Of a stretch of 47,932 bases of DNA, positions 6,032 to 26,413 are shown piece after piece (position 1 is the stretch's first letter; each line of letters opens with the position of its first letter). Below the pieces are notes generated by a model. That model did no database searches, was not told the origin of the DNA, and worked only from the letters and a program-made list of their open reading frames with translations. The DNA is from Bacteroidota bacterium (lineage in GTDB: Bacteria > Bacteroidota > Ignavibacteria > OLB7), in assembly GCA_018266795.1 (NCBI GenBank), contig JAFDZV010000030.1, positions 1 through 47,932 on the forward strand, read 5' to 3'. A program made the translations under genes and the position numbers.

Positions 6032-6087
6032 TGAAATGCTCCCCGGCCCGGTTCCTCCGCGCCGGAGTAGAACAGCACGATGCAACA

Positions 6088-6897: not shown

Positions 6898-6981
6898 CGG
6901 ACCGTTGAAACGGATGCAGAGCTCATCCACTCTCCCCGGATGTAGTGATGGGCACCAAAGTCATGTACATGGAGACAGCGA

Positions 6982-8001: not shown

Positions 8002-8108
8002 TTGCGACCGCAGCCTGACTACGAGTTCCCGACATAACCGGCTGGCAACAGCCTGCCCGCCGGCCTTGCAGCAACTGTAGATAGGAACTCCAAGGAATCA
8101 TCGATCCG

Positions 8109-9461: not shown

Positions 9462-9536
9462 AGCCCGGAGCCTTTCGTTCGGAGCTCAACGAACATCTCC
9501 ATGAACATATCGTGCACTCGACAGGAAGAAAACGTT

Positions 9537-10136
9537 ATGGATCATTTGATACTCAGTCTATCGCCGGACCGATTCAAGGTGTTCTTCGCATGTCCCATCT
9601 CGATGTATATCGATCCGGTGACGTCGCGCCTGAACGCCGGCTACGAACACTTCATCCGCACGGTGCACGGCGTGATCGGCGAGTTGAGCGATGAAACGTT
9701 TCTCGCGATCGAGCGGGAGGAGTGGGGCGCGAGCATACTGCCGTCGCAGGTCTGCACGCCGCTGGACTTCGTGGAGATGCAGCGATGCGATGTGGTGGTT
9801 GCCTATCCCGGGCGGTCGTGCGGCGTGCCGGTGGAACTGGGCTGGGCGACGGCGCTCGGCAAGCCGGTTGTTCTGCTGCTTCGGGACGACGAGGAGTATA
9901 CGCCGGTGATTCTCGGATTGAAGAATGTTCAGGGGTTCCGGGTACAGGAGATCCGGATGCGCGCCGCGGGCGATGCCGGTGCATTCGATCCCGACCGCAT
10001 CACGGCCGATCTGCGCAGGACGCTCGGCGCGCTGGTACGTGAATGGCGGGAGGCGATGCACGGAGGCGACAACCGTCGGCTTGCCGGGACGGAGAACGGT
10101 CTGAACCGGATCACCCACTCAACACAGGACGCCTGA
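9537..10136 (+). CDS. Nucleoside 2-deoxyribosyltransferase-fold protein
   Basis: The 199-residue protein resembles the nucleoside deoxyribosyltransferase/DUF4406 family. The opening FKVFFACPIS corresponds to the family's first strand. CTPLDFVEMQRCDVVVAYPG and GVPVELGWATALGKPVVLL are the usual region around the catalytic glutamate (E of VELGWA). Family members cleave or exchange N-glycosidic bonds. In secondary metabolism they are found in pathways that handle nucleotides or nucleotide-sugar-like intermediates. ATG 9537 is preferred because AGGAAG lies 8 nt upstream; an in-frame ATG at 9501 has no such site. The gene ends 3 bp before the next gene, so the two are almost certainly co-transcribed. 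Confidence 0.75.
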   Translation: MDHLILSLSPDRFKVFFACPISMYIDPVTSRLNAGYEHFIRTVHGVIGELSDETFLAIEREEWGASILPSQVCTPLDFVEMQRCDVVVAYPGRSCGVPVELGWATALGKPVVLLLRDDEEYTPVILGLKNVQGFRVQEIRMRAAGDAGAFDPDRITADLRRTLGALVREWREAMHGGDNRRLAGTENGLNRITHSTQDA

Positions 10137-10139
10137 CGC

Positions 10140-11354
10140 ATGGAAACGATCGAGCGCGAAGTCCGGTTCCACAACCACGGCATGCTTGGCGCATGGTTGA
10201 TCGGCGAGGAGGAGATCGAGGAGTGCACCGACGTGCTTCGGAGCCGCTCCCCCTTCAGACACTACGGTATCGACCTGAAGCACAAGGCACGCACGTTCGA
10301 GGCGGAGGCTGCCGCCACCCTGGGGGTGAGCGGCGCGCTGGCGGTGAACTCCGGGACGTCCGCGCTCGCCTGCGCCATGGCCGCGCTGCGCCTGGCGCCG
10401 GGGGACGAGGTGATCGTTCCCGCATGCACGTTCGTTGCCACCGCAAACGCGGTTGTGCTCGCCGGCGGCATTCCGGTGTTCGCGGAGATCGACGGATCGC
10501 TCGGGCTGGATCCCGAATCCACTGCGGAGCGGATAACGCCGCGCACGGTGGGGATCATCCCCGTGCATCTTCAGGGGATGCCATGCCGCATAGGAGATAT
10601 CGTGAGCATCGCGCGGGAGCGCGGGCTCTGGGTTGTGGAGGATGCAGCGCAGGCGTTCGGCGCGTCGGCGCAGGCGCGCGCGCTCGGAACGCACGGCGAT
10701 ATCGGCGTCTACAGCCTGCAGGCACACAAGACGATCACCTGCGGCGAAGGCGGATTGCTGGTAACGGATGATGCAACGCTGCTGCGCCGCGCGCGCGCGT
10801 ATCAGGATCAGGGAGGTCTGCGCGAGGGGGACGACTATCCTACGTGGGATGCACCGGAGAGCGGATTCGGCCACAACATGAAGATCAGCGAGTTGCACGC
10901 CGCCGTAGCGCTGGCGCAGGTGCGAAAGCTTTCCGTGATCCGCGAGCGGATGCGTGCCCTGCATGCGCTGGTTGCATCGAACGCGGATCTGGGGGGACGC
11001 ATGATGCGGCTTGACCACGATCCCGCCGGCTCGCTCCCCTACGCCTTCATCCTGTTCGCGCACGATGCGGGCGACCGCGCGTGCATCATCGAGCAGCTGG
11101 ATGAACAGGGGATTCCGGCGGACGGCCTGTACGGTGAGGCGATCTATCACCTTCGCCCCTTCGTACGCTGGGCAAACGGCGAACGCGTTCCGGGCCTTCC
11201 GCATCCCGAACTGCGGCCGGAGTTCCGTCCGTGTCCGCGCTCCGAGGAGCTGATGCAGCGCATCGTTCGTATTCCGTTGAACCCGGCCTACGAGCCGGAG
11301 GATATGATGATGCTTGCGCGTGTGCTCACGGCCATTCTGAACAGGAGATCCTGA
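10140..11354 (+). CDS. DegT/DnrJ/EryC1-family PLP sugar aminotransferase (first copy)
   Basis: The 404-residue protein shows the whole sugar-aminotransferase signature. NSGTSAL near residue 75 binds the phosphate, VIVPACTFVATANAV and VEDAAQAFGA follow, and the PLP lysine is in VYSLQAHKTITCGEGG. Length and motif order are those of a standard functional enzyme. The family transfers an amino group from glutamate or glutamine to a nucleotide-linked keto sugar or to scyllo-inosose-like cyclitols. A second member at 12911 suggests two amination steps in the pathway. AGGA lies 10 nt before the start. A gap of 191 bp separates it from the glycosyltransferase gene. Confidence 0.88.
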   Translation: METIEREVRFHNHGMLGAWLIGEEEIEECTDVLRSRSPFRHYGIDLKHKARTFEAEAAATLGVSGALAVNSGTSALACAMAALRLAPGDEVIVPACTFVATANAVVLAGGIPVFAEIDGSLGLDPESTAERITPRTVGIIPVHLQGMPCRIGDIVSIARERGLWVVEDAAQAFGASAQARALGTHGDIGVYSLQAHKTITCGEGGLLVTDDATLLRRARAYQDQGGLREGDDYPTWDAPESGFGHNMKISELHAAVALAQVRKLSVIRERMRALHALVASNADLGGRMMRLDHDPAGSLPYAFILFAHDAGDRACIIEQLDEQGIPADGLYGEAIYHLRPFVRWANGERVPGLPHPELRPEFRPCPRSEELMQRIVRIPLNPAYEPEDMMMLARVLTAILNRRS

Positions 11355-11545
11355 CGGATCCGGGCGGCAACAACCTGCAGGGCGTTCTCCCCTTTCGTTC
11401 GGCCTGTTCCTGCAACTGACCGGGAATCACGGCGAGCCGCAGGCGAGCGTACAAGGAACCGGGCGTCCGGTTATCAGAGGCCCGATAGAACGTGATCAAT
11501 CTTTTGACGGGAACTCCAACACGCAACCATTCCACGAGGGGAACC

Positions 11546-12721
11546 ATGCGACCTCTGATCGTACTCGATGCCGCGCCGTTCTGCTACGGCCCCGTCTCCA
11601 CGCTGATGGCGATCGTGGATCACATCCCCCCCGATGCAGCGGACCTGGTGCTGCTCGCATCCGGCACGGTTGCGGAGTTCGCGGCTCCCTACGGCGACCG
11701 GTTTCGCGTCATCGAATGCGACACCGAGAAGCTGGAGGATCTGGAGCGCATCGCACCGCTGCTGGAGCAGTGCGATCTCTTCATCTCGAACACCAACCCG
11801 CCCGGCGCGCTCTTCGCATGCCGGCGCGGCTGCCCGACCATCTACGTGGATACGCTCTTCTGGATGTGGGACGAGGTGGACCGTGAGATCGCGGAGTCCG
11901 TGCTGGTCTATGCGGCGCAGGACTTCGACGGAATCGGAGAGAACCGCAGGCGCATCGGATCGCATATCAGGAACTTCCGCGTCGTGGGTCCGCTGATCAG
12001 CACGCCCCCTCCCTCCTTCGGTCGCCGGGGGAATCGCTGCATCGTAAGCTTCGGCGGAATGGAGTCCAGCCTGACGATACCCGGAACAACCAACCGCTAT
12101 CCATGGGTGATGACGGAGCTTCTGCTGAAGGCGCTGAACCGTGTCGAGCCGTTCGACAACGTTCTCTTCTGCGGCCGCGGGCCCGTCATGCACCAGCTTG
12201 CATCCGAGTTCGGCCGCCCGGACGTGGAGTTCCGCTTCGTTGCACACCAGGAACTGATCGCGGAACTGCAGCGCTGCAGTATGCTGCTCCTCTCACCGGG
12301 GCTCACCGGCTGCTTCGAGGCCGCGGCCGCAGGCACTCCAACCGTGCTGCTCCTTCCGCAGAACTACAGCCAGCAGTTGCAGGCCGCCACGTTCGCCGCG
12401 GACAGGGGCTGGCCGTTCGCAGGAAATGACTGGAGCAGGATCTATCCATCGGTGAGCTTCCCCCGCTACATGCCGGAGGCCGAGGCGATCGCCGGGCTCA
12501 ATCAGGTAATCCGCACCTTCGAGACCGACGCCGATGCGCAGGAGCGTTACGTGAACATGGTTGTGGAGGATATGCACGCGGCCGCGGGCCGCCGGGCCGG
12601 CCACACGATGCGCTCGGGCGCGGCGGATGTGGCGGAGATGATCGTGCAGGTTCTGGCGGCCGGGCCGCTCCGTTCGCGCCCGCATCGTGCCGCTGCGGGC
12701 GCAGTGATGGAACGCATGTAA
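11546..12721 (+). CDS. GT-B fold glycosyltransferase-like protein
   Basis: The 391-residue protein is built like a GT-B transferase. A Rossmann half opens with MRPLIVLDAAPFCYGP. The nucleotide-sugar half contains IVSFGGMESS, VLFCGRGPVM and the loop LLSPGLTGCFEAAAAGTPTV near residues 250-270, equivalent to the donor-binding region of GT1/GT28 enzymes. LLLPQNYSQQLQA follows. It has no membrane segment, so it should act in the cytoplasm. GAGGGG immediately before ATG 11546 decides the start against an in-frame ATG at 11492. The acceptor is unknown. The C-terminal 30 residues are Arg/Ala-rich and poorly conserved in character. Confidence 0.75.
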   Translation: MRPLIVLDAAPFCYGPVSTLMAIVDHIPPDAADLVLLASGTVAEFAAPYGDRFRVIECDTEKLEDLERIAPLLEQCDLFISNTNPPGALFACRRGCPTIYVDTLFWMWDEVDREIAESVLVYAAQDFDGIGENRRRIGSHIRNFRVVGPLISTPPPSFGRRGNRCIVSFGGMESSLTIPGTTNRYPWVMTELLLKALNRVEPFDNVLFCGRGPVMHQLASEFGRPDVEFRFVAHQELIAELQRCSMLLLSPGLTGCFEAAAAGTPTVLLLPQNYSQQLQAATFAADRGWPFAGNDWSRIYPSVSFPRYMPEAEAIAGLNQVIRTFETDADAQERYVNMVVEDMHAAAGRRAGHTMRSGAADVAEMIVQVLAAGPLRSRPHRAAAGAVMERM

Positions 12722-12910
12722 GCGCGTACAACCGGACATCCTTCCAGCCGGCGGGCCGCACAATCCGGCAATGGTAACCCGTCTCGTCGTATCATGAAAC
12801 GCGTCTCCGATTCAATCGCCGGAACCGCCGCGCACGCCCGATGATGCGGACATCGGGAAGATCGAAGGCTGTGATGCAGGCGAACGTTCCAGAAACAATC
12901 TCACAACGGC

Positions 12911-14080
12911 ATGCCGCCAACCGATACCATCAACAACGGCGCAACGGCGCACGCGGGGCAGGCGCCGGCCCAGCCACGGCACGGGGAGGAGGTGATGCGC
13001 GTCGTGGAGCAACGGCTGAGCGTGGAGTTCGGCTTTCGCGATCCGCTCCTGGTGCGATCGGCGAGCGAGGGATTCCTCTGCACGCTTCTGGCACTCGGCA
13101 TCGGCACCGGCGACGAAGTGATCCTGCCGGTCTCGATCTGCCATACGATGATCAACGCAACGCTCCTCTCCGGCGCAACGCCGGTGCTGGCGGACTGCGA
13201 CCAGCAGATGGCATTGAGCGCCGCGGCTGCGAAGCTGAGGATCACCCCGCGAACGCGATGCATTGCTGCGCACCACCCGTTCGGCCGAGCAGTTGATCTC
13301 TCCCCGTTGAGGGCTGTCGCGGCGCGATCCGCCAACCCGGTCGTGCTTGTGGAGGATTGCGCGCAGGCGCTCGGCGCCGCACTGGATGCACCGGTTGGCC
13401 TCTTCGGTGACGTCGCGCTCTTCTCCTTCGCCGCACGCAAGCCGCTGGCAGCCGGCACGGGTGGGATGGTTGTTGTGCACGGCCACTCTCCGCACAACGA
13501 ATCGCTGCGCGCCCGCCTGCGTCATACCGCACGCGTCGGCGCGCCCGGATATCCCGATGACGAACTGCTCGGCTGGTTCTCCAGCCCCTCCCCATCCGAT
13601 GCCGCGACGTTGCTGGAACAGATCGACCGGTTCCGCGGTGACCTGCGGGCGCGGCTGTCCGCTGCGGCCGAGGCTGTGACGATCCTTGCATCCTCGTTCA
13701 GCGTCCTCTCCTCGGAGGATCCGCGCCGGTGGCCGCCGCGCAGCGTGTTCCACAGAATAGTCGTCGATCTGCCGACACGGAACCGTCCGGCTCGCTACGA
13801 GGGGATCATGCGCCGGCTCGATGCGATGCTTCCCCCGTCCGCGCGCAGAGTTGTGGAGAGCGGCATCCCGCGCGCGCCGTTCGAGACGGAGTATCTGCAG
13901 GAACGATATCGCCGCGCACGGCGCGAGGATCTGTGCGACGCTCCGGGAGTCGAGTTTCCGGTGTGGAACTCGTATCGCTGGCGGTATGTGTATCTGCGTA
14001 CCGATGCCTCGGTATCGCGGAGCGATCTGCTGGCCGCATGCCACGCGCTTGTCCACGCCATCGGCTCCAACGAGGATTGA
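12911..14080 (+). CDS. DegT/DnrJ/EryC1-like PLP enzyme (second, diverged copy)
   Basis: The 389-residue protein follows the sugar-aminotransferase plan less closely than its neighbour at 10140. RSASEGFLCTLLALGIGTGDEVILP replaces the NSGTSAL region, VEDCAQALGA supplies the cofactor Asp, and the lysine lies in LFSFAARKPLAAGTGG. The C-terminal part is shorter than usual. It may aminate a different substrate or have another PLP-dependent activity. ATG 12911 has no ribosome-binding site, whereas ATG 12995 follows GGGGAGG directly and would give a 361-residue protein still containing the fold; the true start may be there. Its stop is immediately followed by the ATG of the methyltransferase. Confidence 0.8.
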   Translation: MPPTDTINNGATAHAGQAPAQPRHGEEVMRVVEQRLSVEFGFRDPLLVRSASEGFLCTLLALGIGTGDEVILPVSICHTMINATLLSGATPVLADCDQQMALSAAAAKLRITPRTRCIAAHHPFGRAVDLSPLRAVAARSANPVVLVEDCAQALGAALDAPVGLFGDVALFSFAARKPLAAGTGGMVVVHGHSPHNESLRARLRHTARVGAPGYPDDELLGWFSSPSPSDAATLLEQIDRFRGDLRARLSAAAEAVTILASSFSVLSSEDPRRWPPRSVFHRIVVDLPTRNRPARYEGIMRRLDAMLPPSARRVVESGIPRAPFETEYLQERYRRARREDLCDAPGVEFPVWNSYRWRYVYLRTDASVSRSDLLAACHALVHAIGSNED

Positions 14081-14875
14081 ATGACGCACGCCACGAGAGA
14101 TGAACGTCTGGAAGGGTGGCTCTACGACTGGGAGAACAGCCTCACGCTCCAGCGGCAGAATCTGGACATCGGCTTCTACAGCGCGCTCGCGGCGCGGCGG
14201 TGGCCTTCGGCTGTGGACATCCTGGAGTTCGCATGCGGAACAGGAAGGGTGGCGCTGCCGCTTTCACGTGCGGGGCACCGGGTACGCGGCGTGGACATCT
14301 CGCAAAGCCGTCTGCTCGTTGCACGCGAGAAGATCGAGCCCGGCCTCGAGATCGCATTCGAGTATGGTGACATGCGCTGCTACGATGGGAAGGCGGCCTT
14401 CGATCTGGTGCTGGTACCGTACAGCTCCTTCCTGCTTCTCGCGTCGGACACGGAGCGCACGTCGTGCCTGCGCTCGCTACGGCAGCGCATGAAGCCCGGC
14501 GGGCTCGCGGTGGTCGATCTCTCCCCGAACTTCCTTCGCCATCCGGAGACGGAACAAGCGCCGGAAGCGTACGGCCTCTGCGCCCCTCTGAATGCAATGG
14601 TGGAGCTCAGCCACACGGTGCGTCAGGACTACGTGCGGCAGATCACGACGATCCGGAAAAACTATCGCATCACGTCGGCAGGCGGCAGCGTCGAGGAGTT
14701 CGCGACCAACGAGACATGGTACACACTGAAGGTGCTGGAGATGCGATGGCTGGCGGCGCAGAGCGGGCTGCGTGTGGCGGACATTCTCGGCACGTATCAC
14801 GGCGATCCGCTCCTGTGCGACGGCGAGTATCAGCCAACGGCATACAAGAACATCTACCTGCTGGAAGGGGCGTAA
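14081..14875 (+). CDS. SAM-dependent class I methyltransferase
   Basis: The 264-residue protein has the Rossmann methyltransferase core. Motif I is ILEFACGTGRVALPLSRAG near residues 48-66, with the acidic end of strand 2 in VRGVDIS, motif II near VLVPYSSFLLL and a post-III region RMKPGGLAVVDLSP. The C-terminal part contains the mixed beta region seen in small-molecule methyltransferases. It probably methylates an O or N of the pathway product. The ATG abuts the preceding TGA, so it is translationally coupled to the second DegT-like gene. Confidence 0.85.
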   Translation: MTHATRDERLEGWLYDWENSLTLQRQNLDIGFYSALAARRWPSAVDILEFACGTGRVALPLSRAGHRVRGVDISQSRLLVAREKIEPGLEIAFEYGDMRCYDGKAAFDLVLVPYSSFLLLASDTERTSCLRSLRQRMKPGGLAVVDLSPNFLRHPETEQAPEAYGLCAPLNAMVELSHTVRQDYVRQITTIRKNYRITSAGGSVEEFATNETWYTLKVLEMRWLAAQSGLRVADILGTYHGDPLLCDGEYQPTAYKNIYLLEGA

Positions 14876-14934
14876 CGGCCATTCCGAACGCTCCCGGTGC
14901 GCGGCGCACCATCACACGATACAGGACAACCTTC

Positions 14935-15933
14935 ATGCAGAGCGGCACATCATCCCTGACAGTTCGCTATTCGCTGGTCACCCCCTGCTACAATGCAGCC
15001 GGCACGCTCGGGCGCCAGCTTGCGCTCCTTGCGAACGAGCACATCGCCGCGCCGTGGGAGATGGTGATTGTCGACAACGGCTCCACGGACGGCACGCTTG
15101 CCGTGGCGGAGACCTACGCCGATCGCATCCCGAACCTTCGCATTGTGGATGCGAGCAACGTTCCGCGCAGCATCGCACATGCCCGCAATACGGGCGTTGC
15201 GGCCGCCGCTGCGGATCGTATTCTCTTCCTCGATGCCGATGACGAGATCGCACCGGGATGGCTTGCGGCGATGGCCGGCGCGCTGGAGACATGCGGGCTG
15301 GTTGGCTGCCGCATCGACTACGACAGGCTGAACCTGAACTGGCCGGCAAGCCGCAGCATGGAGCCGCAGCAATCGGGACTCGCCAGCGAATACGGTTTCC
15401 TTCCCTACTGCACCAGTTGCGGCATGGGAGTCTGGCGTGAATATCACGATGCCGTTGGCGGGTTCGATCCTGTCTACCGACGGCTGGAGGATATCGACTA
15501 CTGCTGGCGCGTGCAGCTTGCAACGGGCGTGACGCCCGGCTTCGTGCCCGCCGCCACTCTCCATTACAGGCTGCGCGGCACCAGCGAACGCGTGTTCATG
15601 CAGTCCATGGACTGGGGATTCGATGAAGCGTATCTCTTCCAGCGGTTTCATCCGCACGGATTCGCACGCCCGGCCTACTCGCCAGTGGGCTCCTGGGAGC
15701 GGGCACAGGCGCTTGCCGACGAGTTGATCGGGCAACGGGATCTCCTGAACGACGATCGCGGGCGGTTGCAGTGGTGGAAGTGGGCAGGGTATTTCGTGGG
15801 ATCGATGGAGGGTTGGGCGGTGTACGGAGCGGATGATCGCGGCGCGAACGCCGGCGCAGTACAGGGTGCCGGCCGGAAGCGTGCGGAGAGTACGCTGGAC
15901 GCGTTCGCGAAGGTCATGCAGGAAGCTCTGTAG
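14935..15933 (+). CDS. Family 2 (GT-A) glycosyltransferase
   Basis: The 332-residue protein has the GT2 hallmarks: YSLVTPCYNAAGTL at the N terminus, the uracil-binding DNGSTDGT near residue 42, the metal-binding DADDE in LFLDADDEIAPGW near residue 100, and a catalytic ED in RLEDIDYCWR near residue 185. There is no membrane helix, so it is a soluble transferase using a nucleotide sugar. ATG 14935 follows AGGA by 9-10 nt; the longer in-frame reading overlaps the methyltransferase and is discarded. It is the last gene of the plus-strand operon, and its end overlaps the convergent isomerase-like gene by 20 bp. Confidence 0.87.
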   Translation: MQSGTSSLTVRYSLVTPCYNAAGTLGRQLALLANEHIAAPWEMVIVDNGSTDGTLAVAETYADRIPNLRIVDASNVPRSIAHARNTGVAAAAADRILFLDADDEIAPGWLAAMAGALETCGLVGCRIDYDRLNLNWPASRSMEPQQSGLASEYGFLPYCTSCGMGVWREYHDAVGGFDPVYRRLEDIDYCWRVQLATGVTPGFVPAATLHYRLRGTSERVFMQSMDWGFDEAYLFQRFHPHGFARPAYSPVGSWERAQALADELIGQRDLLNDDRGRLQWWKWAGYFVGSMEGWAVYGADDRGANAGAVQGAGRKRAESTLDAFAKVMQEAL

Positions 15934-16750
15934 ACCGCGCGGCAAACTCCCGCATCGTTGCGAGGCTGATGCGCGCGGCATCGAGCGTGTGATGTTCCAC
16001 GATGATGGGCCGGCCTGCGATGCCGATCTGCAGCAGCCGCGCTGCCATCGCGGCATTGTGCCGGATCCACTCGCCGGTCACAGGCCGGTGAAGATCGGCC
16101 GCACCGTCGTTGGCATGAAGGTGCACACCCACGACGTGCGACTGCACCGCCGCGAGGAAGTCGATGGGCGGCACCAGCGGATCGATCGCGGCATGCCCCG
16201 TATCGAACACCATCCCCACGCGATCGGCGGGCAGGGCCGCAAGCATGCGCAGACACTCATCGGGAGTATCTCCCAGATAGCTCTTCATGCAGGCATCGGG
16301 AAGCCGCTGCGTGTTCTCCAGTCCCACACGGATCCGCATACCGGCCGTGCGTTCCAGTACCCGCTCCACCGCCTCGATCCCCACCTCCAACCGGCCGGCT
16401 TTCTTCGCGCTCGTCCGGCTGAACCCGCAGGTCCCGAGATGAACGGAGAGCCAGCGAGCACCCAGCCGTTCGCCGAACTCCATCTGCTCCGCGACGATGT
16501 CCACGGCCGTCGCCCGGATGCGCGCGATCTTCTCCGCGAGATTCACACCGGGATAGGAGTGCAGGCTTGCGCCGAGTCCCTCGCTCCGCAGAAGATCGGC
16601 GAGTTCGGCGCAGCGGATGCGATCGTGCAGCGCGCCCCCGGCCTCGATCTCCGTGATACGCATCTCCAGATGCGAGACACCGTGCTCGCGCAGCAGCACG
16701 AGCAGGTCGCGACCGATGTGCATGGATGTATGCGAACAGCCGAGGATCAT
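15914..16750 (-). CDS. Sugar-phosphate isomerase/epimerase-type TIM barrel (AP endonuclease 2 family)
   Basis: The 278-residue protein has the metal sites of xylose-isomerase-like TIM barrels: WLSVHLG near residue 106, IRVGLENTQ near 144, GMVFDTGHA near 182, VGVHLHAND near 212 and IIVEHH near 250. These residues bind two divalent ions in epimerases and in endonuclease IV. The length fits small sugar or inositol isomerases/epimerases such as IolE/IolI or hydroxypyruvate isomerase. The start at ATG 16750 is supported by GGGAG 5 nt upstream and a 4-bp ATGA overlap with the preceding gene. It closes the minus-strand operon and overlaps the plus-strand glycosyltransferase gene tail to tail. Confidence 0.82.
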   Translation of the reverse strand: MILGCSHTSMHIGRDLLVLLREHGVSHLEMRITEIEAGGALHDRIRCAELADLLRSEGLGASLHSYPGVNLAEKIARIRATAVDIVAEQMEFGERLGARWLSVHLGTCGFSRTSAKKAGRLEVGIEAVERVLERTAGMRIRVGLENTQRLPDACMKSYLGDTPDECLRMLAALPADRVGMVFDTGHAAIDPLVPPIDFLAAVQSHVVGVHLHANDGAADLHRPVTGEWIRHNAAMAARLLQIGIAGRPIIVEHHTLDAARISLATMREFAARSTELPA

Positions 16751-17658
16751 GGCTTCTCCCACGCGTTCATCCGGAACGTCCGGTTGCCGACGCTGTTCTG
16801 AAGCAGGAAGAGCATGTCATCCTCCGCGGTATACTCCAGGCAGCGGACATCGTTGTAGTGCGCCTCGATCAACGTACATGCGGCGCGCAGTTGGCGGTAT
16901 GCATCGGGATTCACGTCCGGCATCTCGGAGAGATCCTGCTGCAGCGGAGACGTTGTCCCGCCCAGCGCCATTCCCTGCCGTCCGGGAATGAAGTGCCCGT
17001 AGTCCATCGGCCGGCCGGTGTGCGGATGGCGCGTGTAGCACATGCCGGTAAGCGACCGCGGCGTGAGATTGCCGAACACCATGCGCTGCACGATCACCGT
17101 GGCCAGCGGCCGTCCGGCCTCCGTGCGTTCCTGGCGCATCAGATAGTCGTAGAACGCCGTCACCAGCGTTCGCATCTGATCCTCCAACGGACGATCCGGG
17201 AATTCGTGCGGCATCACCAGATGAAGGAAGGTGTGAAACGCCTCCGCATGCGCCGCGCAGACCGCACGCAGTTCCTCGATGAATGCATCGCTTACTCCAT
17301 GCGCGCGTGCAGCCGCGATGCCGAGCGGGTTCAGGCCGATATCGAGCACCGAGTCCGGGAATCGTTTCGGCTCACCCCGTTTCGATTTCATTCCGCATCG
17401 AAAGGAGAGGAGGGGGATGGGCCCGGTGATGCTCTCCTGCAGCACGCAGGTCTCCCCGCAGAGATCATCCAGCAGAGCGGCCCGGTTCTCGGCATCGCGA
17501 TACTGTTCATACCAGCCCGGCGGAATAATCAATGCCTCCGGCACGCGAAGCCCAAGGCTCTCCAGCTCCATCAGCCCCCGGGCCTTTTCACCGAGCGCCT
17601 CCGGATCTCCGCCGGCTACACCGCCGTAGATCCGCACACGTTCCGATGCCGGTTTCAC
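16747..17658 (-). CDS. Stand-alone ATP-grasp domain of pyruvate phosphate dikinase (truncated form)
   Basis: The 303-residue protein corresponds to only the N-terminal nucleotide-binding part of PPDK. It has GEKARGLMELESLGLRVPEA for the LLGGKGA-NLAEM opening, then VIVQRMVFGN, SLTGMCYTRHPHTGRP (the family's SGTGVaFTRnPsTG) and LEYTAEDDMLFLLQ near the end. The phosphohistidine swivel domain and the PEP-binding barrel, which make up the other roughly 550 residues of PPDK, are absent and are not encoded nearby. It cannot catalyse the full dikinase reaction by itself; it may be a kinase or ATP-dependent ligase for another substrate. GTG 17658 is chosen because GGAGG lies 7 nt upstream and GTGA overlaps the previous stop. 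Confidence 0.78.
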   Translation of the reverse strand: MKPASERVRIYGGVAGGDPEALGEKARGLMELESLGLRVPEALIIPPGWYEQYRDAENRAALLDDLCGETCVLQESITGPIPLLSFRCGMKSKRGEPKRFPDSVLDIGLNPLGIAAARAHGVSDAFIEELRAVCAAHAEAFHTFLHLVMPHEFPDRPLEDQMRTLVTAFYDYLMRQERTEAGRPLATVIVQRMVFGNLTPRSLTGMCYTRHPHTGRPMDYGHFIPGRQGMALGGTTSPLQQDLSEMPDVNPDAYRQLRAACTLIEAHYNDVRCLEYTAEDDMLFLLQNSVGNRTFRMNAWEKP

Positions 17659-19253
17659 CGTGATGCCTCCTGTGCCGTGAACGAGTGTTCGGCCGGGAGG
17701 TCGCCCTGCGAATGGCCGCCGTTGCGCATTACCGCTTCCACTCCGGCAGGAAGATAAAGGCGGCGCAGATCGGGGAGCAGACGCGAGAGCGCAACAACAC
17801 AGGCAGGCCACGAGAACGCATCGCGGTTGAGAACGCGCAGATACGTCACGCGCAGCGCGCGCCGTCCGGGGCTCGGCTCCAGTGCAACGGCTGCCAGCAG
17901 CCCGGTGCCGGACGCGAACGCAATCAGTTCGCCCGGACAATCGGCCGTTGCTGCCCGGAGATGAAACCGGTCGAGCGCGGTTGCCGGCAGTGCGGTCACC
18001 CCCTCCGACGCGTCTCGGCTGTACGCCTGCACCTCCACGCAGAGAGCACGGCCGCGATCGCCGGCGGCAGCGGCAAGCCGTGCCGCCGGAAGAAGCAGCC
18101 AGTGTTCCAGCGGCCCCGGTATGTCGTTCCGCAGACGATACCGTTCGGGACTGCCGTAGATGGCGGCCCGCAGCGGCGCACTGAACGCCTGCATGGCGGA
18201 AGCCGCGGCGGCGCTTATCCGTTCGGACGCGCCGGGCTCCAACTCGATTCGTACGCGATGCCGCGGCGCCGTCTCCCTGCTCCAGGATGACTTGAACCGA
18301 TCGTTGCGTCCCCAGAAGTCCACCATCTCCACTCCCTCCGTCGCAAGCCGCTGCAGCGCCTCGGCCATGATCACCTTGCCCGGCATGAAGTGCGCGGCGT
18401 GATCGGCATAGGTCCAGATGGCGAAGTAGGCGGTACGCTCCATCACGAACGCGATGATGAAGGCCACCGGCTCCGCCTCCACCTCCAGCACGAACAGCCG
18501 CACGGCGCCGTTGCGCGCGAAGCGCTGCATGGCATGCGAGAACTGCACATCCTCGCGATCGCTTCGGCACATCGCCCCGCCGCGCTCGACCTTCCAGCTC
18601 CCGGCATCCACGCGGAGCATCGCCTCGATGCCGCGTTCGAGATCGTGTCCGGAATGGTAGCACCGAACCGCCGCCGAGGCGGCATCCACACGGAGGCGGC
18701 GCCGCGCCTTGCGCAGCCCTTCGCGCGTGTTCGCGGAGAGCCCGGCGTTGAAGGCATCCCAACCATGCCGCAGATCCACCATGACGTTCTCGTGCGTAGG
18801 CCGCCTCGTAATGCACGCGCCTTCGGCATCCATCGCTCCGACAAAGGCCTGCGTCGCCTCCCATGCAAAGTCGATCTGAACCAGGTCGAACACCGCCCGC
18901 CGGTATTCGGCACGGAGGGCACGCACAACCTGAACGGCATGCTGGTGCGAAGCGGAGACAATGAAGAGCGGAACGATCTCGCACAGCCCACGTATCCGCG
19001 CCGTGCGCCCGCGATGCCGTTCAACGACGTGCGGGAAGACGGCCACCAGCCGGCCACTGCACCAGACCGCGAGCATCCGCAGGTCACGACGGTTCTCGTA
19101 CCGCCGCAACTCGCCGTAGGTCCAGGCGGGCACGGTTGTCGGCGGCTGCGGGCATGCGGAAACCGCGACGGCATCCTCCCATTCCCTTTCGAGTTCGAGG
19201 AAGCCATCCAGACTTCGCAGCAGACGATGACGATATGGTTCGTGCGTTGGCAT
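17655..19253 (-). CDS. FemAB-like GNAT acyltransferase (BioF2/Acetyltransf_6 type) with C-terminal extension
   Basis: The 532-residue protein contains a FemAB-type double-GNAT region. NAGLSANTREGLRKARRRL near residues 170-190 matches the SKNTRYNIRRAER-like signature. LRVDAGSWK, VRLFVLEVEAEPVAFIIAFV, PGKVIMAEALQRLATEGVE and VDFWGRNDRFKSSW complete the C-terminal GNAT half (to about residue 330). Beyond it lie about 200 residues that I cannot assign. FemAB proteins add aminoacyl groups from tRNA; Acetyltransf_6 relatives in exopolysaccharide and peptide clusters acylate sugars or peptides. It lies 17 bp after the other FemAB-like gene and overlaps the PPDK-fragment gene by GTGA. Confidence 0.75.
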   Translation of the reverse strand: MPTHEPYRHRLLRSLDGFLELEREWEDAVAVSACPQPPTTVPAWTYGELRRYENRRDLRMLAVWCSGRLVAVFPHVVERHRGRTARIRGLCEIVPLFIVSASHQHAVQVVRALRAEYRRAVFDLVQIDFAWEATQAFVGAMDAEGACITRRPTHENVMVDLRHGWDAFNAGLSANTREGLRKARRRLRVDAASAAVRCYHSGHDLERGIEAMLRVDAGSWKVERGGAMCRSDREDVQFSHAMQRFARNGAVRLFVLEVEAEPVAFIIAFVMERTAYFAIWTYADHAAHFMPGKVIMAEALQRLATEGVEMVDFWGRNDRFKSSWSRETAPRHRVRIELEPGASERISAAAASAMQAFSAPLRAAIYGSPERYRLRNDIPGPLEHWLLLPAARLAAAAGDRGRALCVEVQAYSRDASEGVTALPATALDRFHLRAATADCPGELIAFASGTGLLAAVALEPSPGRRALRVTYLRVLNRDAFSWPACVVALSRLLPDLRRLYLPAGVEAVMRNGGHSQGDLPAEHSFTAQEASR

Positions 19254-19270
19254 CCGTTCGGCGCGAGGCC

Positions 19271-20224
19271 TCACGTGTAGTAGTACAGGATGGGCCGGTA
19301 CTCTTCCGGCCGCGCGTGCCAGTGGACCTGGAAATAATGGCGGCGCTCTCCGCCGAAGCTCTGAAAGAAATTCTCGATGTCCGGCAACACGGACCCTTCG
19401 AAATCGAACGCACGAAGCCCGCGTGCATGTGCGAAGCGGATCGCATGCCATATCAATGCCGCCGGGAGTCCGCGCGGCGCACGCTCGCGATCGAAATAGG
19501 AGAGGAGATCGTACGCCGTGTGTGAATCGTACGCCAGGAACAGGCCGCCGACCGGCCGGCCATCGCTCAACGCAACGAACGGCCGCCCGCTGTCCGCGGC
19601 GCTCATCTCCGCAATCAGGCCGCGCCACGGCGCCACGTGATGCGGGGGCTCGTAGAAGAGCGCCGCATCGAAATCGAACCAGCGCAGATCGGTATCGGCA
19701 ACGATGTCCACGGCCGAGGCACGGCGGATGTGATTCCGTACGCCGCTCTCCATCCCTTCCCAGATGCTCTGCGTTGATGCCAGCGAGAGCGTGTAGGTGT
19801 AGCGCAATTCGAGATTGCAGTGTGCCTGCAGGTACGGCGTCATGTCGCCGATGGAATGGTGCAGCGGAAGCACCAGCGATGCGTAGCGCTCGCGGACGGC
19901 CTCGATCAGCGCCGTGAGCATGGCGCGGCGTGTTCGGTCGCGATACACGCGACGGCCGTTCGAGCGCTCCAGCACCGGCGCCCAGTACGGGGCGATGTAG
20001 GAGCTGCGTTCCGCGTGCAGCGCCCCGTCGCGCTCGGTCACCGGCAGCGCATGGCCGGCAACCAGACGGTCGCCGGCAAACACGCCGAGTGTTTCGATAC
20101 GGCCGGCATGCCGCAGATATGCCGTTCGCGAGAAGAGCGTCCCGTTCTCCGCTTCGGCAACGAACCGATCCCATTGTTCCATCTCATGCGGCTCCAGAAG
20201 CCGCACACTGTATCCATCACTCAT
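19271..20224 (-). CDS. FemAB-like GNAT acyltransferase
   Basis: The 317-residue protein is a compact FemAB/GNAT-type transferase. The N-terminal half includes FVAEAENGTLFSRTAYL, a start typical of these proteins. A GMESGVRNHIRRASAV stretch near 155-170 matches the NRHIRRA signature. SDGRPVGGLFLAYDSHTAYDLLSYFD and ALIWHAIRFAHARGLRAFDFEGS form the acyl-donor half. The end (NFFQSFGGERRHYFQV) resembles the F-K-GFG motif of the family. It is related in fold to the gene downstream but not a close duplicate. A TATAAT box (complement of 20236-20241) lies only about 12 nt before the start codon, so its transcript could be nearly leaderless. Confidence 0.78.
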   Translation of the reverse strand: MSDGYSVRLLEPHEMEQWDRFVAEAENGTLFSRTAYLRHAGRIETLGVFAGDRLVAGHALPVTERDGALHAERSSYIAPYWAPVLERSNGRRVYRDRTRRAMLTALIEAVRERYASLVLPLHHSIGDMTPYLQAHCNLELRYTYTLSLASTQSIWEGMESGVRNHIRRASAVDIVADTDLRWFDFDAALFYEPPHHVAPWRGLIAEMSAADSGRPFVALSDGRPVGGLFLAYDSHTAYDLLSYFDRERAPRGLPAALIWHAIRFAHARGLRAFDFEGSVLPDIENFFQSFGGERRHYFQVHWHARPEEYRPILYYYT

Positions 20225-20581
20225 GCTCTCGATCCATTATACGACTGCCCGCAGGCAACAACCTTCCGGGCCGGCGGCCAACGACAACAGACATTGCCCG
20301 CCACATACATCGGTCGCCGAAGGCCATCCCTTCCACCGTTTGCCCGCAACGACCATGGAGGGAACGTTCGTTCCGTCTCTGCCAGGTTCACCACCGACTG
20401 TGCCAGTGCATCCCTCTGCAATGACCGTTTCGACGGATATTCATCGCCCTGAAACGGCGACGGTGGAAAGCCCGCGGCGTGAGCCCGGGTCGACGGGTTG
20501 AGCCGTTGCCTCGGTAGCTCTGAACGGGCGCCAGAAACCAGCCGGCCACTGTTTGCCATTAGCAGCCCACGCGCCGCGCCG
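20225..20581. other. Intergenic region inside the minus-strand gene group
   Basis: No gene is supported here. Next to the FemAB-like gene start is a minus-strand TATAAT (20236-20241), which may be a separate promoter for the four downstream genes. The rest contains GC-rich dyads around 20440-20500 (CCCGCGG/CCCGGG segments), but I see no clear terminator after the HPr-kinase-like gene. Confidence 0.35.
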
Positions 20582-21700
20582 TCATGCAGAAGTATCCGCG
20601 GCCCCGGCCTGTACATGCGTCAGGAGTTCGCGCGCCATCAGGCGGGGGTTCGCGCGGCCGTGAAGACGCAGCACGCGAACGGAGTCAGGCTTCAGCGGTT
20701 CGGATATCGCGCCGGCGCCCGGCGTGCCCGCACCGAAGCCCGGAGGCAGATCGTACCGCACAGTATGCCGCGCCAGGAGATCACCGGCATCGCGCTCCGG
20801 CCGGCGGGATGCCTCGATGCGATAGCCGCCATCATCCTCCGCGCACAGTTCAACGATGGCCGCAAGGCGGAGACGAGGCGGCACCGGAAGCCGGCGGACC
20901 TGCAAACGGGCGGATTGCAGGAAGTCCCCCGGAGGGAAGCGGAACTTCCCGGCATAGTGATACTGCGGATCGTCGCCGTGCCGATCCATGAGCTCCTGCA
21001 CTCCCTCGAGGCTCTCCCCTTCGAACACGAGCGGCAGGCCGGCCGGATCCAATCGATATGTGCATGGCCACCCGGCAACGAACGTCGCCTCCCCCTCGCG
21101 CCACGCGAACAGCCGGTCGCTCGCCACATATGCGGCCCCTTCGGCAAGCAGTGCGGTAACCAGTGTGGTCTTTCCGCTCCCCTTCTCTCCAACGATCACC
21201 AACGCCATGTCTCCAACGCCCACGGCGCCGGCATGCAGCACGCGGCCGCCGCGATCGGCAAGCGACGCAAGGAGAACGATGCGCGTTGTTGCGTACACCG
21301 TCTGCACGAGGCGGTCGTCGGAGACGTCTTCCGCCGCCTCGATCGCGATCGAGCGTGCAACCGGATCGAGGCGTGCCGCGATCGCTGCGTCGGCTTCATA
21401 CATCCGGAATCGAGCGCCGCCGGCCGGCACGATCCGCGATGCATGTCCCGCAGGACCCGGCTCGGCCTGATACGGCAGGCCTTCGGCGCCGCCGGGAGCT
21501 ACAACGTTCGGAACGCGCCGGACATCGATGCGCCAGACCGGGCGCCCTTCCACGTGGCCCGGCAGAGGCACATAGTGCGGCAGCAGATACGGTCCCAGCA
21601 TGTCGTAAAGGGCAGAACGGCCGGACCGATCCGCAAGCGCGATCTCGATCCCGGACGGGAGCAGATACCAGAGCAGATCGCCGGTTGCATCGCCCGCCAT
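20582..21700 (-). CDS. HPr-kinase-like P-loop protein
   Basis: The 372-residue protein resembles the catalytic domain of HPr kinase/phosphorylase. VLHAGAVGVGDMALVIVGEK precedes the Walker A GEKGSGKTT (residues 171-179). AAYVASDRLFAW then replaces the family's G..L.SDD. An N-terminal region of about 140 residues has no HPr-kinase N-domain signature. HprK-like proteins outside sugar regulation are known from RiPP clusters, where for example the paeninodin-type lasso kinases phosphorylate a serine of the precursor peptide. Phosphorylation of the Ser-rich repeat protein, or of a small molecule, is therefore plausible but inferred. Its ATG directly follows the stop of the APH-like kinase gene, so the two are coupled. 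Confidence 0.8.
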   Translation of the reverse strand: MAGDATGDLLWYLLPSGIEIALADRSGRSALYDMLGPYLLPHYVPLPGHVEGRPVWRIDVRRVPNVVAPGGAEGLPYQAEPGPAGHASRIVPAGGARFRMYEADAAIAARLDPVARSIAIEAAEDVSDDRLVQTVYATTRIVLLASLADRGGRVLHAGAVGVGDMALVIVGEKGSGKTTLVTALLAEGAAYVASDRLFAWREGEATFVAGWPCTYRLDPAGLPLVFEGESLEGVQELMDRHGDDPQYHYAGKFRFPPGDFLQSARLQVRRLPVPPRLRLAAIVELCAEDDGGYRIEASRRPERDAGDLLARHTVRYDLPPGFGAGTPGAGAISEPLKPDSVRVLRLHGRANPRLMARELLTHVQAGAADTSA

Positions 21701-22510
21701 CTACCGCGTCCCCTGCACCACGTGATGTCCGAAGTAATAATCGAGCAGCGTGTAGTAGCGGAGTGTCTCGTGGTTCACCTGCTCTGCACCGTAGACCTCG
21801 AAGAACAGAGCGCGATACTCCTCACCGAGATTGAAGGAGACGCTGTCCGCCATCGCCATCAGGTCGCGATGAGGATCGGCTGCGCCCGCGATCCCCCAGT
21901 CGATGAAGCCCACGATGGACTCCGCGTCGATGATGATGTTCGGCATGCAGTAGTCACCGTGCGTGAACGTGTTCTCGACGATCATCCCCTTCCGCCCGGC
22001 CAGATCCTCGTACACGTCCTCCGGCGTGCGCCCGCCGGCATCGGCCATGAAGCCGGCGCGATCGATCTCCCCGGCTTCGATGCGGCGCTTCGCCTCGCGC
22101 AGCTCGGACTCCAGCGTGTTTCGGAACGGGCAATCATCCAGCGGCACCGCATGAATGGTGCGCATTCCTTCCACGATTCGTTCAATCAGCCGCCGCGGAT
22201 CGTTCTTCCAGCGCTCGTCGGACGATGTGGCGCCGTGCAGTTCGCCGATCAGCAGATAGGAGCCGCCGGCATCGCTCCACCAGCCACGGACCTCCGGCAC
22301 CGGAAGGCGGCCTGCAAGCCACGCCAGCCGCTGCCGTTCTGCATCCAGATCCTCCATGGAACCGGCCGGCGCGAACTTCAGATAGTATCCCTCAGCGTGC
22401 GCGTCCTGAATGTGGTACAGTTCGGTGCCGAGCCGAGCGTCCGGACGACGTTCGATAGCGGCACAGTCAAGCAAGCCCGCGAGGCCCGCAGGAAGAAGCG
22501 TTGCATCCAT
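21701..22510 (-). CDS. Aminoglycoside 3'-phosphotransferase-like kinase
   Basis: The 269-residue protein has the APH(3') fold signature at normal length: K45 in YYLKFAP and E58 for ATP, the Brenner loop THGDYCMPN with D186 and N191, and the metal-binding D204 in GFIDWGIAGAADPHRDL. WLAGRLPVPEV, ELHGATSSDE and PLDDCPF are wording typical of APH(3') enzymes rather than of distant choline-kinase relatives. It may phosphorylate an amino-sugar pathway product, as self-protection or as a biosynthetic step. Whether it confers resistance to clinical aminoglycosides cannot be judged from sequence. It heads a coupled pair with the HPr-kinase-like gene. Confidence 0.85.
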   Translation of the reverse strand: MDATLLPAGLAGLLDCAAIERRPDARLGTELYHIQDAHAEGYYLKFAPAGSMEDLDAERQRLAWLAGRLPVPEVRGWWSDAGGSYLLIGELHGATSSDERWKNDPRRLIERIVEGMRTIHAVPLDDCPFRNTLESELREAKRRIEAGEIDRAGFMADAGGRTPEDVYEDLAGRKGMIVENTFTHGDYCMPNIIIDAESIVGFIDWGIAGAADPHRDLMAMADSVSFNLGEEYRALFFEVYGAEQVNHETLRYYTLLDYYFGHHVVQGTR

Positions 22511-23321: not shown

Positions 23322-23774
23322 GAAATGCTCCCGGCATTTTCTCACATCAACGGAGCTGCACGATGCGATTTGGGGAGTCGCCCGCACATCGTCGACAACG
23401 TTTCACTTCACAGGAGGTTATCCCTTCGCACGAAGGTGAATCATTTCATACCAGGAGAAAAAATTCACCGCCGCATCGGGCCAATTTGTTCTTGACACCA
23501 TCGGCTCAGCCTCATATTTTAGGACCGAGACCATCACTCTGCTATTTCCCTCGTTAATAGCCTCCTGATGGCCACGGAGCCGTGGCGATCGAGTGTTTTG
23601 CGGATATCCGCCGCAGGCGTCATCAACATTGCCGCCACGATACCCTCGCAACCGAACACTCGAAATGCTGCGACAGGCCCGGCATGGGAACCTCGCAGAA
23701 GGCCGGAGGCATGCCCGTTGCCGCCGGGAAACACCTGGCATATCGATCACCATACATCACAGGAGAAACACACC
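23322..23774. other. Divergent intergenic region and long leader of the peptide gene
   Basis: The region lies between the divergent nth-like and peptide genes. It contains the promoter candidate 23493-23523, a small dyad CCTTC/GAAGG at 23423-23436, and a 6-bp stem hairpin GCCACG-GAGC-CGTGGC at 23571-23586 within the predicted 245-nt leader of the peptide gene. An in-frame extension of the peptide to 23568 exists but has no ribosome-binding site. Confidence 0.4.
23493..23523 (+). promoter_or_regulatory. Strong candidate promoter of the small-peptide locus
   Basis: TTGACA (23493-23498), a 17-nt spacer and TATTTTAG (23516-23523) lie upstream of the 79-residue peptide gene. The TTGACA box is a perfect match and the -7 box is close to TAnnTTTG. 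It implies an untranslated leader of about 245 nt. Confidence 0.6.
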
Positions 23775-24014
23775 ATGGCCTGTACAACCCAGATTCAGAC
23801 ACTGACCGAGCTGTTCAATCTCATGGGAGCAAACACGGACCTCGCGACCACGTTGAAAGCCGATCCGGGAGGCGTAGCCTCACAGTTCGGCATCACGCTT
23901 ACTACCGCTCAGATCGAAAACATTCGCGCGAATCTCGACGTGACACAGGTTGCCTCCTGGGCATCTCAGGTGAACTCCTACGCCGCGAAGGTTGAATCGG
24001 GAGTCGGCGTCTGA
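23775..24014 (+). CDS. Small RiPP-precursor-like peptide with Nif11-like leader
   Basis: The 79-residue peptide has an excellent ribosome-binding site (AGGAGAAA 7 nt before the ATG). Residues 9-55 (TLTELFNLMGANTDLATTLK, then ADPGG and FGITLTTAQIENIR) follow the Nif11-type leader pattern of a helix, a D-x-x-L-x-x-x-L-K-A stretch, a Gly-containing turn and an FGI-T-x-x-E/Q-I helix. The last 25 residues (from DVTQVASWASQ) are small and Ser/Ala/Val-rich, with one Trp at 62 and no Cys, as a core might be. There is no obvious double-Gly at the end of the leader; PGG at 31-33 is too early. It lies 123 bp before a B12-type radical SAM gene. The precursor role is inferred from size, leader likeness and context. 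Confidence 0.65.
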   Translation: MACTTQIQTLTELFNLMGANTDLATTLKADPGGVASQFGITLTTAQIENIRANLDVTQVASWASQVNSYAAKVESGVGV

Positions 24015-24137
24015 TTGCCGAATCCCATGTGACGCACATCCCGTCCGGCTGCGTCGCGTATCACAGATACCAAGGCAGCCGGCGGGAATCGTGCCAACGC
24101 GACCGCACGAAAATATTCCACGAGAACCTTCGCAACC

Positions 24138-25706
24138 ATGATCGCCGATTTATTACTTCTCCGCCCTCACGGCAAGCGGACCCACGGCCGCATATTTTCG
24201 ATGGAGCAACTCGGCCTGGCGTATCTGGCCGCCGTGGCCCGGGCAGATGGTTTCACCGTTGAGATCATCGACGGATTTCTCGAGCCCGAGCGTTACGACG
24301 CCAGGCTCGCGGCGATGGGCCCGGGAGACTACATGCTGATCGGCTATCCGGTGTATCAGGAGACGGTACGCCGTGTTGCCGCGGACGTCCGGGCTCTTCG
24401 CGAGCGCGGCCTCACGACTCATGTGACAGTCGGCAACTACCTGGCAACGCTGCATGGACAACGGATACTGGAGGATTATCCCGAATTCGACTCGGCAATA
24501 CGCGGCGAGGGGGAATATGCCGTCACCGAGCTATTGCACGCACTTCGCGGCGACCGGCGCCCGGAGGACATTCCGGGTCTGGTTCACAGAGCGGGTGGCG
24601 GAATCGTCGCAAATCCTCCGCGGCCGAACGCCGGCGATCTCGACACCATCCCGTTTCCCTCGCGCGACACGCTCCCGCTGGTGTTGAAGGCCGGCAACGC
24701 CCCTCTCATCTATTCCAGCCGGGGATGCAACGCATGCTGCGAGTTCTGTTCGGTCCATAAATACTACAATGCCTCACCGGGCGGGCGCTGGCGCGGACGT
24801 TCTCCGGCGAACGTTGTGAATGAAATTGAATTCCTCATGCGGACCTTCGGCGTCACGGAGTTTGCGTTCGCAGACGAACAATTCATGGGGCACGGCGGTT
24901 CCGGCCGCGATCGAGCCATTGGAATTGCAGACGAAATAATCCGGCGGGAACTGAAGGTTCGCTGGTACATCGAAACGCGGTCGGCCGACGTGTTCCCCGC
25001 GGTGTTCGGGCGGATGAAGGAGGCAGGCCTCGCTTCAGTCTTCATGGGAGTTGAATCCGGCTACGATCCGGCGCTTCGCGCGCTCCGGAAGGGCCTGCTC
25101 GTGCTCAATCATGTGCAGGCGATCAGAACGCTCCTCGATCTGGAGATATTACCGAGCATCGGCTTCATCATGTTCCGCCCGGAGTCCACGTTCGACGAAC
25201 TCCGGTATAACCTGGATTTTCTGGAAGAGATCGGATGCGGCGAACTGACCGCACTCGCAACCATTGCCAAGGTGTACACGGGAACGGATCTGGAGTCCCG
25301 GCTGCTCGGCGAAGGGATGCTGCAGGGTGACTACAGAAAATATCGATGGAAATTCCGGGACCCCGGCATGAACGATTGCTGCACGCTGTTCATGGAAAAC
25401 GCCGATCTGTTTTCCGTCATGTACAACGAATTTGCCGAGATACGACGCAGCGAATCGTTGTCGTTCGCAGAGTGCCGTTCCCTGCAGCGTTTCATGAATC
25501 ACGCTCCTATCGCTATATTGCGCGACGCCGTGAATACCATCGAGCGCGAGGCCCATTGTCCCGACGATCTCCGCTCCGATGTTCGGACGCGCCTGCTCGA
25601 CGCAGCCCAGGAATTTCTTCGGCTCCTCCGATTTACGACGGCAATTTCGGAGGAACGCGTTGTGGATGACGGATTCCGGCTGCTGAATCCCATGGCGCTC
25701 TGCTGA
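24138..25706 (+). CDS. B12-binding-domain radical SAM protein
   Basis: The 522-residue protein has an N-terminal B12-binding Rossmann region: SMEQLGLAYLAAVARADGFT, then YMLIGYPVYQET and HVTVGNYLATLH, to about residue 150. The radical SAM motif follows as C197-x3-C201-x2-C204 in SRGCNACCEFC. The core runs through FAFADEQFMG, VRWYIETRSADVF, GVESGYDPAL and SIGFIMFRPEST. The last 120 residues are helical. Members of this class methylate unactivated carbon or phosphorus, rearrange rings or epimerise residues; several act on RiPP precursors. The domain lacks the DxHxxG cobalamin motif, as many of this class do. Context with the peptide upstream and a nucleosidase downstream suggests peptide methylation, which is an inference. 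Confidence 0.85.
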   Translation: MIADLLLLRPHGKRTHGRIFSMEQLGLAYLAAVARADGFTVEIIDGFLEPERYDARLAAMGPGDYMLIGYPVYQETVRRVAADVRALRERGLTTHVTVGNYLATLHGQRILEDYPEFDSAIRGEGEYAVTELLHALRGDRRPEDIPGLVHRAGGGIVANPPRPNAGDLDTIPFPSRDTLPLVLKAGNAPLIYSSRGCNACCEFCSVHKYYNASPGGRWRGRSPANVVNEIEFLMRTFGVTEFAFADEQFMGHGGSGRDRAIGIADEIIRRELKVRWYIETRSADVFPAVFGRMKEAGLASVFMGVESGYDPALRALRKGLLVLNHVQAIRTLLDLEILPSIGFIMFRPESTFDELRYNLDFLEEIGCGELTALATIAKVYTGTDLESRLLGEGMLQGDYRKYRWKFRDPGMNDCCTLFMENADLFSVMYNEFAEIRRSESLSFAECRSLQRFMNHAPIAILRDAVNTIEREAHCPDDLRSDVRTRLLDAAQEFLRLLRFTTAISEERVVDDGFRLLNPMALC

Positions 25707-25723
25707 TCTCCTTATGCGAACCA

Positions 25724-26413
25724 ATGTACATAATCATCGTCTCTGCCAACAGCGAATGGCAAAACGTGGTCGAGATTCTCGCTCCGCGGCGGCTGCACAA
25801 TTCACCGTATGGCGAATGGTTCGAGTATGAGTCCGCATGGGAATCGGTAATCGTTGTTCATGGAGGATGGGGAAAGATTGCCGCGGCCGCGTCGGCACAG
25901 TACGCGATCGATCACTGGAAGCCGCTGGCGATTCTGAACATCGGAACGTGCGGCGGCCTTGCCGGCCGCGCGGCCGTGGGCGATATCATCCTCGCCGAAC
26001 GCACGGTGGTATCCGACTTCGTTGTCGAGATCGGCAATCTCGAGGAGGAGGAAGCCGCCTACATCACCATGCTGGAGCCCCCCGCGCTCTTCCGCAGCCG
26101 CCTTCCGCTCTCCGTCCTGCAGGGAACAATCGCTTCGGGTGATCGCGACGTTCAGCGCCACGACGTTCAGCGTCTCGTTGAACGCTACGATGCGCTGGCG
26201 GCAGACTGGGAGTCCGCCAGCATCGCCTTCGTGGCGAAGCAGAACGGTGTGCCGTGCGCCATCCTTCGCGGCGTGAGCGACGTGGTGGGCGAACACCATG
26301 CCGACGCGTACGACGGCCGCGATCATGCCTTCCACAACGGCACGCGGACCATCATGCGGCGGTTGCTCGGCGAGCTTCCCTCCATCCTGGAGGCCGTGGC
26401 CACCGCACTGTAA
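25724..26413 (+). CDS. MTA/SAH-nucleosidase-like (PNP/UDP family) protein
   Basis: The 229-residue protein has the nucleoside phosphorylase fold: SANSEWQNV at the start with a candidate acid E11, ILNIGTCGGLA and VGDIILAERTVVSDF, the ribose-binding WESASIAFVA where family enzymes have MEGAAIA, and ILRGVSDV with the catalytic Asp. Length equals that of MTA/SAH nucleosidase. These enzymes remove 5'-methylthioadenosine, S-adenosylhomocysteine and 5'-deoxyadenosine, the last two being the by-products of a B12 radical SAM methylase. It starts 17 bp after the radical SAM gene, so the two share a transcript. The change from MEGAA to WESAS leaves the exact substrate open. Confidence 0.8.
   Translation: MYIIIVSANSEWQNVVEILAPRRLHNSPYGEWFEYESAWESVIVVHGGWGKIAAAASAQYAIDHWKPLAILNIGTCGGLAGRAAVGDIILAERTVVSDFVVEIGNLEEEEAAYITMLEPPALFRSRLPLSVLQGTIASGDRDVQRHDVQRLVERYDALAADWESASIAFVAKQNGVPCAILRGVSDVVGEHHADAYDGRDHAFHNGTRTIMRRLLGELPSILEAVATAL

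Follow-up and report, generated by a model that had tools for sequence, protein, structure and literature searches.

Proteusins of the polytheonamide type combine an NHLP leader with PoyB and PoyC, which are C-methyltransferases of the B12-dependent radical SAM (rSAM) type. Class B B12-dependent radical SAM methylases consume two molecules of SAM and release SAH and 5′-deoxyadenosine. Inhibition of radical SAM enzymes by 5′-deoxyadenosine is described in PMC8102628. For the small protein Os1348 (PosA) of Pseudomonas sp. Os17, a precursor role was predicted first; later, its cluster was studied as a RiPP pathway and the maturation enzymes were characterized (PMC7726476, PMC12636437). The window analyzed here, which is the whole stretch of 47,932 nucleotides, contains a triad of genes for a small protein, an rSAM protein and a nucleosidase-like protein (Table 1). 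We propose, with about even confidence, that the triad is a RiPP-type operon in which the B12-dependent rSAM modifies the C-terminal tail of the small protein and the nucleosidase removes SAH and 5′-deoxyadenosine. The confidence is set at this level since a unique layout offers no test by conservation.

Table 1. Coordinates of the triad and its signals in the window, and of DPxP peptide genes at loci of related rSAM proteins
Feature	Position	Strand	Basis or remark
Shine-Dalgarno AGGAG	23761..23765	+	9 nt 5′ of the peptide ATG
Small protein of 79 aa and putative RiPP precursor; helical fold resembling Os1348/NHLP at residues 13-78	23775..24014	+	NF038399 match and model
B12-binding domain radical SAM protein (rSAM), 522 aa, C-terminal helical bundle 409-511	24138..25706	+	Pfam domains, model
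Divergent MTA/SAH-nucleosidase-like protein (PNP_UDP_1), 229 aa	25724..26413	+	Pfam, NCBIfam, alignments
Promoter-like site TTGACA-17-TATTTT, weak evidence	23492..23520	+	motif scan
Strong RNA hairpin in the peptide-rSAM gap, without T-run	24039..24087	+	folding z=-3.88
DPxP pairs among loci L024-L058	L039:5491-5832 (rSAM 5962-7548); L045:5355-5831; L035:5563-5898; L053:5618-5851		

An earlier note on this DNA had described a 79-residue peptide with a strong ribosome-binding site, followed by a cobalamin-type radical SAM gene and a nucleosidase gene. The peptide ORF and its AGGAG element were borne out, and both enzyme assignments were confirmed by Pfam. The strong promoter that was also claimed was not supported by scanning, which returned two sites when 0.9 are expected by chance. 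The peptide ORF starts with ATG and its frame is the best of six when scored by the codon usage of neighboring genes (0.7 vs -11 to -100 bits). Per codon the score is neutral, so that coding potential alone is no proof of a gene. The peptide and rSAM genes are separated by 123 bp, and the rSAM stop codon and the nucleosidase gene by 17 bp. The hairpin in the first of these gaps, a feature that the earlier note does not mention, has a stem of 13 bp interrupted by one bulge, lies in a stretch with an MFE z of -3.9 and is present as a single copy within the window. It is a possible processing or attenuation element, and may set an excess of precursor over enzyme.

Close homologs of the rSAM or the peptide were not found in 99 near relatives. 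Among 395 genomes of the phylum there was no close homolog of the rSAM and no nucleosidase homolog at E≤1e-22. The triad is missing from the genus mate, where an empty-site comparison showed EndoIII as the sole shared gene and no synteny, and from family members. The same three-gene layout was not recovered in any relative, including 80 rSAM neighborhoods, and the linkage of the three genes is consequently not confirmable by conservation. We consider it improbable that the triad comprises chance neighbors, namely three accessory genes that are unrelated and happen to share a variable region, with a peptide ORF that possibly is no RiPP precursor. Such an arrangement would match the absence of the triad in the genus mate and in members of the family, the lack of conserved synteny, the near-neutral codon score and the subthreshold family match of the ORF, but sits poorly with the good ribosome-binding site, the best frame of six, the shared strand, the 17-bp spacing between the rSAM and nucleosidase genes, and the occurrence of a RiPP-type match beside a B12-rSAM.

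The 79-aa protein was viewed in the earlier note as Nif11-like, but neither PF07862 nor TIGR03798 matched it at E≤1 in searches of Pfam and NCBIfam. Pfam as a whole produced no match, and phmmer against the PDB and tblastn in plasmids likewise were negative. The sole NCBIfam match was to NF038399 (Os1348 family, NHLP clan) with E=8.2e-4 and 19.4 bits, a score that fails the curated cut-off of 40 bits; peptide residues 25-66 align with positions 18-58 of the 63 in the profile. A six-frame search of the same genome with NF038399 returned the peptide locus as the single match (E=0.01). Across the 395 phylum genomes, 30 matched at E≤0.01 and eight scored above the cut-off, so that the peptide match lies at the noisy end.

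The single-sequence AlphaFold model of the peptide is all helical, with a predicted helix at 56-74 and pLDDT of 64. When this model was compared with the PDB by Foldseek, chains of the Os1348 crystal structure (6lk7) occupied ranks 1-3 (prob 0.97-0.89, E 0.15-0.36), the top match having a TM of 0.5 and E of 0.15, and the matches that followed had prob 0.18 or less. Alignment of the model with 6lk7 in VIA-align gave Z 5.2 over 62 residues, slightly above other helical proteins, and where helical proteins are compared such a Z (about 5) is weak. The best reading of the peptide, unproven and moderately supported, is a folded NHLP-like leader because sequence and fold independently agree on one target among very many. 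The RiPP interpretation in the earlier note is reasonable in view of the Os1348/NHLP-like match in sequence and fold and of the small-peptide partners of related rSAM lineages described below, but it is unproven and the match is subthreshold.

Trp62 had been named as a possible target of modification. The residue is an unlikely one because it is placed within both the Os1348-matching region and the predicted helix, and the tail N67-V79 would be the likelier substrate. There is no protease, transporter/exporter or RRE-type gene adjoining the triad. The absence of a protease and an exporter also would suit a small protein that is no precursor of a secreted product but acts as carrier or activator, is modified by the rSAM or used by it as a scaffold, and stays intracellular as a folded protein. 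Os1348 is folded almost to the C-terminus (PMC7726476), and pathways with a peptide as carrier exist (PMC9303977). Nevertheless, enzymes of carrier type, such as an aminoacyl ligase, do not adjoin the triad, and we judge a carrier role to be distinctly unlikely.

The rSAM protein matches PF02310 (B12-binding, 48.2 bits, cut-off 32.1) and PF04055 (Radical_SAM, 47 bits, cut-off 29.5). Its CxxxCxxC motif (C197/C201/C204) is invariant in an alignment of relatives. With both domains above gathering scores and the cysteine motif intact, the protein qualifies as a predicted cobalamin-binding radical SAM protein. No NCBIfam model reached its cut-off. The top named models were BchE (117 bits), ApyD (98 bits) and HpnJ (96 bits), and the RiPP-enzyme models that matched, ApyD and rSAM_ocin_1 (70 bits), similarly were below cut-off, as was TIGR03975 (RiPP maturation rSAM 1) at 70.5 bits compared to 281.85. 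The protein model has pLDDT of 92, and OxsB, MgmA, AprD4 and TsrM are the nearest solved folds. BchE- and AprD4-like members have the same fold without methylating. A single-protein scan of the genome contigs for the rSAM returned no match, and judged by sequence the protein is an orphan with at most about 36% identity to any match.

A scan for the rSAM family provided 80 loci. The rSAM proteins at 24 of these form one clade with 100/100 support in which each has an upstream peptide gene of 66-158 codons, the count being descriptive as the peptides were initially chosen by eye and the clade was computed later. The peptide genes are located -4 to 216 bp upstream of the rSAM gene, and the products nearly always possess a D-P-x-P type motif (DPxP). 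The motif is tripled at three loci (such as GPVADPAPxW), a pattern that a core might show. The bacterial hosts include Chlorobiaceae, Acidobacteriota, Thermodesulfobacteriota, Nitrospirota and Planctomycetota, and the archaeal hosts include Methanoperedens, Methanosarcinales, Bathyarchaeota, Lokiarchaeota and Heimdallarchaeota. No significant Pfam or NCBIfam model was found for any of the ten DPxP peptides scanned, and nothing specific to the pairing was found in the open-licence literature. The DPxP peptide and B12-rSAM apparently constitute a widespread, undescribed system in bacteria and archaea.

The rSAM of the window is outside the DPxP clade on a long branch (1.85). As the window peptide and the DPxP peptides both present ADP followed by helices, homology between them was considered but rejected, the window peptide scoring 1.1 bits (E=21) against a DPxP profile built from 27 upstream peptides. 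Separately, among other relatives of the rSAM, peptides that start with MAINLMAP are encoded beside tandem B12-rSAM genes in Burkholderia stagnalis (L019:5942-6109), where an insulinase-family gene also is present, and in Desulfosporosinus (L032:3617-3724). These loci are putatively another RiPP type. The earlier note had counted relatives of the rSAM without an upstream small peptide against the RiPP interpretation; this objection does not clearly apply, as many relatives do have such a gene, although of other families. The repeated location of this rSAM group beside small proteins of unrelated families supports, by analogy only, the window peptide as a substrate.

Positions 4838-22510 of the window contain a gene for a nucleotidyltransferase (PF14907), a SPASM rSAM (BlsE-like, 70 bits), a class III and two DegT aminotransferases, a CGA-synthase-like glycosyltransferase, a daptide-type methyltransferase-like gene (74 bits), an HprK-related kinase, GNAT genes and an APH(3′)-family phosphotransferase gene above its cut-off (212.1 vs 205). 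The cluster possibly specifies a pathway of aminosugar or nucleoside type with self-resistance. The rSAM and nucleosidase of the triad may instead function in small-molecule metabolism, for example in tailoring a sugar- or nucleoside-like product of this 4.8-22.5 kb cluster, with a nucleoside intermediate as the substrate of the nucleosidase and no relation to the small protein. The BlsE-like rSAM, the glycosyltransferase, the DegT aminotransferases and the APH(3′)-family gene are upstream of the triad, and the small-molecule enzymes OxsB and AprD4 are among the nearest B12-rSAM structures. However, the cluster is separated from the triad by an EndoIII gene of the opposite strand, the triad and the nearer part of the cluster are transcribed divergently, and small peptides partner sister rSAM lineages. 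We regard this alternative as a serious one, but rather unlikely.

The nucleosidase matches PF01048 with 80 bits (cut-off 25.1), but scores below the MTAN cut-offs of NF004079 (92.4 vs 169 bits) and TIGR01704 (60.6 vs 73.8 bits). Residues E11 (with a one-residue gap), E163 and D186 align with Glu12, Glu174 and Asp197 in MTAN numbering, whereas Trp162 replaces Met173 and the Phe151 region is altered. The genome elsewhere encodes a canonical MTAN (contig C22, 244.6 bits), an SAH hydrolase (contig C1), a PNP and a futalosine-hydrolase-like protein. The possibility that the window nucleosidase is the only MTAN of the organism is rejected by the first two of these, and from the same evidence the protein is classified on sequence grounds as an extra, divergent MTAN-like paralog and not a housekeeping enzyme. 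This status is consistent with a dedicated task, but is not proof of one. The clearance of by-products suggested in the earlier note is plausible for an MTAN-like protein with alignable catalytic residues, but the scores below the MTAN cut-offs and the enzymes encoded elsewhere temper the assignment. No nucleosidase gene was found near the 80 rSAM relatives, several contigs of which are short.

In the RiPP-type operon that we propose, the folded helical part of the small protein (about residues 5-66) would serve as a leader similar to NHLP/Os1348 and dock the B12-dependent rSAM. The target of this enzyme would be the flexible tail at the C-terminus (about N67-V79, NSYAAKVESGVGV), and C-methylation of an unactivated carbon would be the likeliest reaction. 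It would use two SAM per turnover to yield SAH and 5′-deoxyadenosine, both inhibitory, which the nucleosidase would hydrolyze. The chain from peptide to rSAM to nucleosidase is chemically coherent, and we infer each of its links. A wider proposal, which we advance tentatively and consider doubtful, is that a broad B12-rSAM lineage modifies ribosomal peptides in bacteria and archaea and recruited small-protein partners independently. The window would then exemplify an Os1348-type leader with, uniquely so far, an operon-borne nucleosidase that clears SAH and 5′-deoxyadenosine during repeated turnovers on one peptide.

If the proposed operon is genuine, it would be of RiPP type with its own by-product-clearing nucleosidase, of which no described example was found. 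It would be a remedy found in nature for the product inhibition by which B12-dependent radical SAM chemistry is limited in vitro, and would link leaders of the Os1348 type with B12 radical chemistry. The earlier note knew of no described RiPP with this layout, and the 80 rSAM neighborhoods and the open-licence literature likewise revealed none. The comparison also exposed the DPxP peptide and B12-rSAM pair which is directly testable.

Among known systems, MtnN (NF004079/TIGR01704) shares the PNP_UDP_1 family and an alignable catalytic Glu/Glu/Asp set with the window nucleosidase, which differs in scoring below both cut-offs and in the changes at Met173 and in the region of Phe151. The ApyD-type RiPP B12-rSAM (NF050148) is the second-best named model for the window rSAM after BchE, but its 750-bit cut-off is far from reached and the apy pathway has other partner enzymes. 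In the DPxP pairs, too, the gene for a small peptide immediately precedes that for a related B12-rSAM, but the peptide family is unrelated and the window rSAM is outside the clade. Proteusins resemble the window in an NHLP-type leader, which is putative in the window, and in B12-rSAM enzymes. In contrast to proteusins, the window has no match to classical NHLP/nitrile hydratase models and no leader-cleavage motif of the typical kind ahead of the tail, which is short, and the window rSAM scores 70 bits against the cut-off of 282 for the RiPP C-methyltransferase model TIGR03975. Os1348-family proteins of 77-85 aa (NF038399 above cut-off) also are present in Chlorobiaceae (L123-L130) in varied surroundings with no obvious maturation gene, and a lower-scoring relative (L132) is ahead of a YydG-like rSAM. 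The Os17 cluster differs from the window in possessing an acetyltransferase and a HEXXH enzyme, the terms 'radical SAM' and 'nucleosidase' being absent from the text of PMC7726476, and the window peptide scores below the NF038399 cut-off. The two are alike in that a small helical protein, of the NHLP clan in Os17 and putatively so in the window, precedes modifying enzymes; the sequence match is weak, and 6lk7 ranks first by fold.
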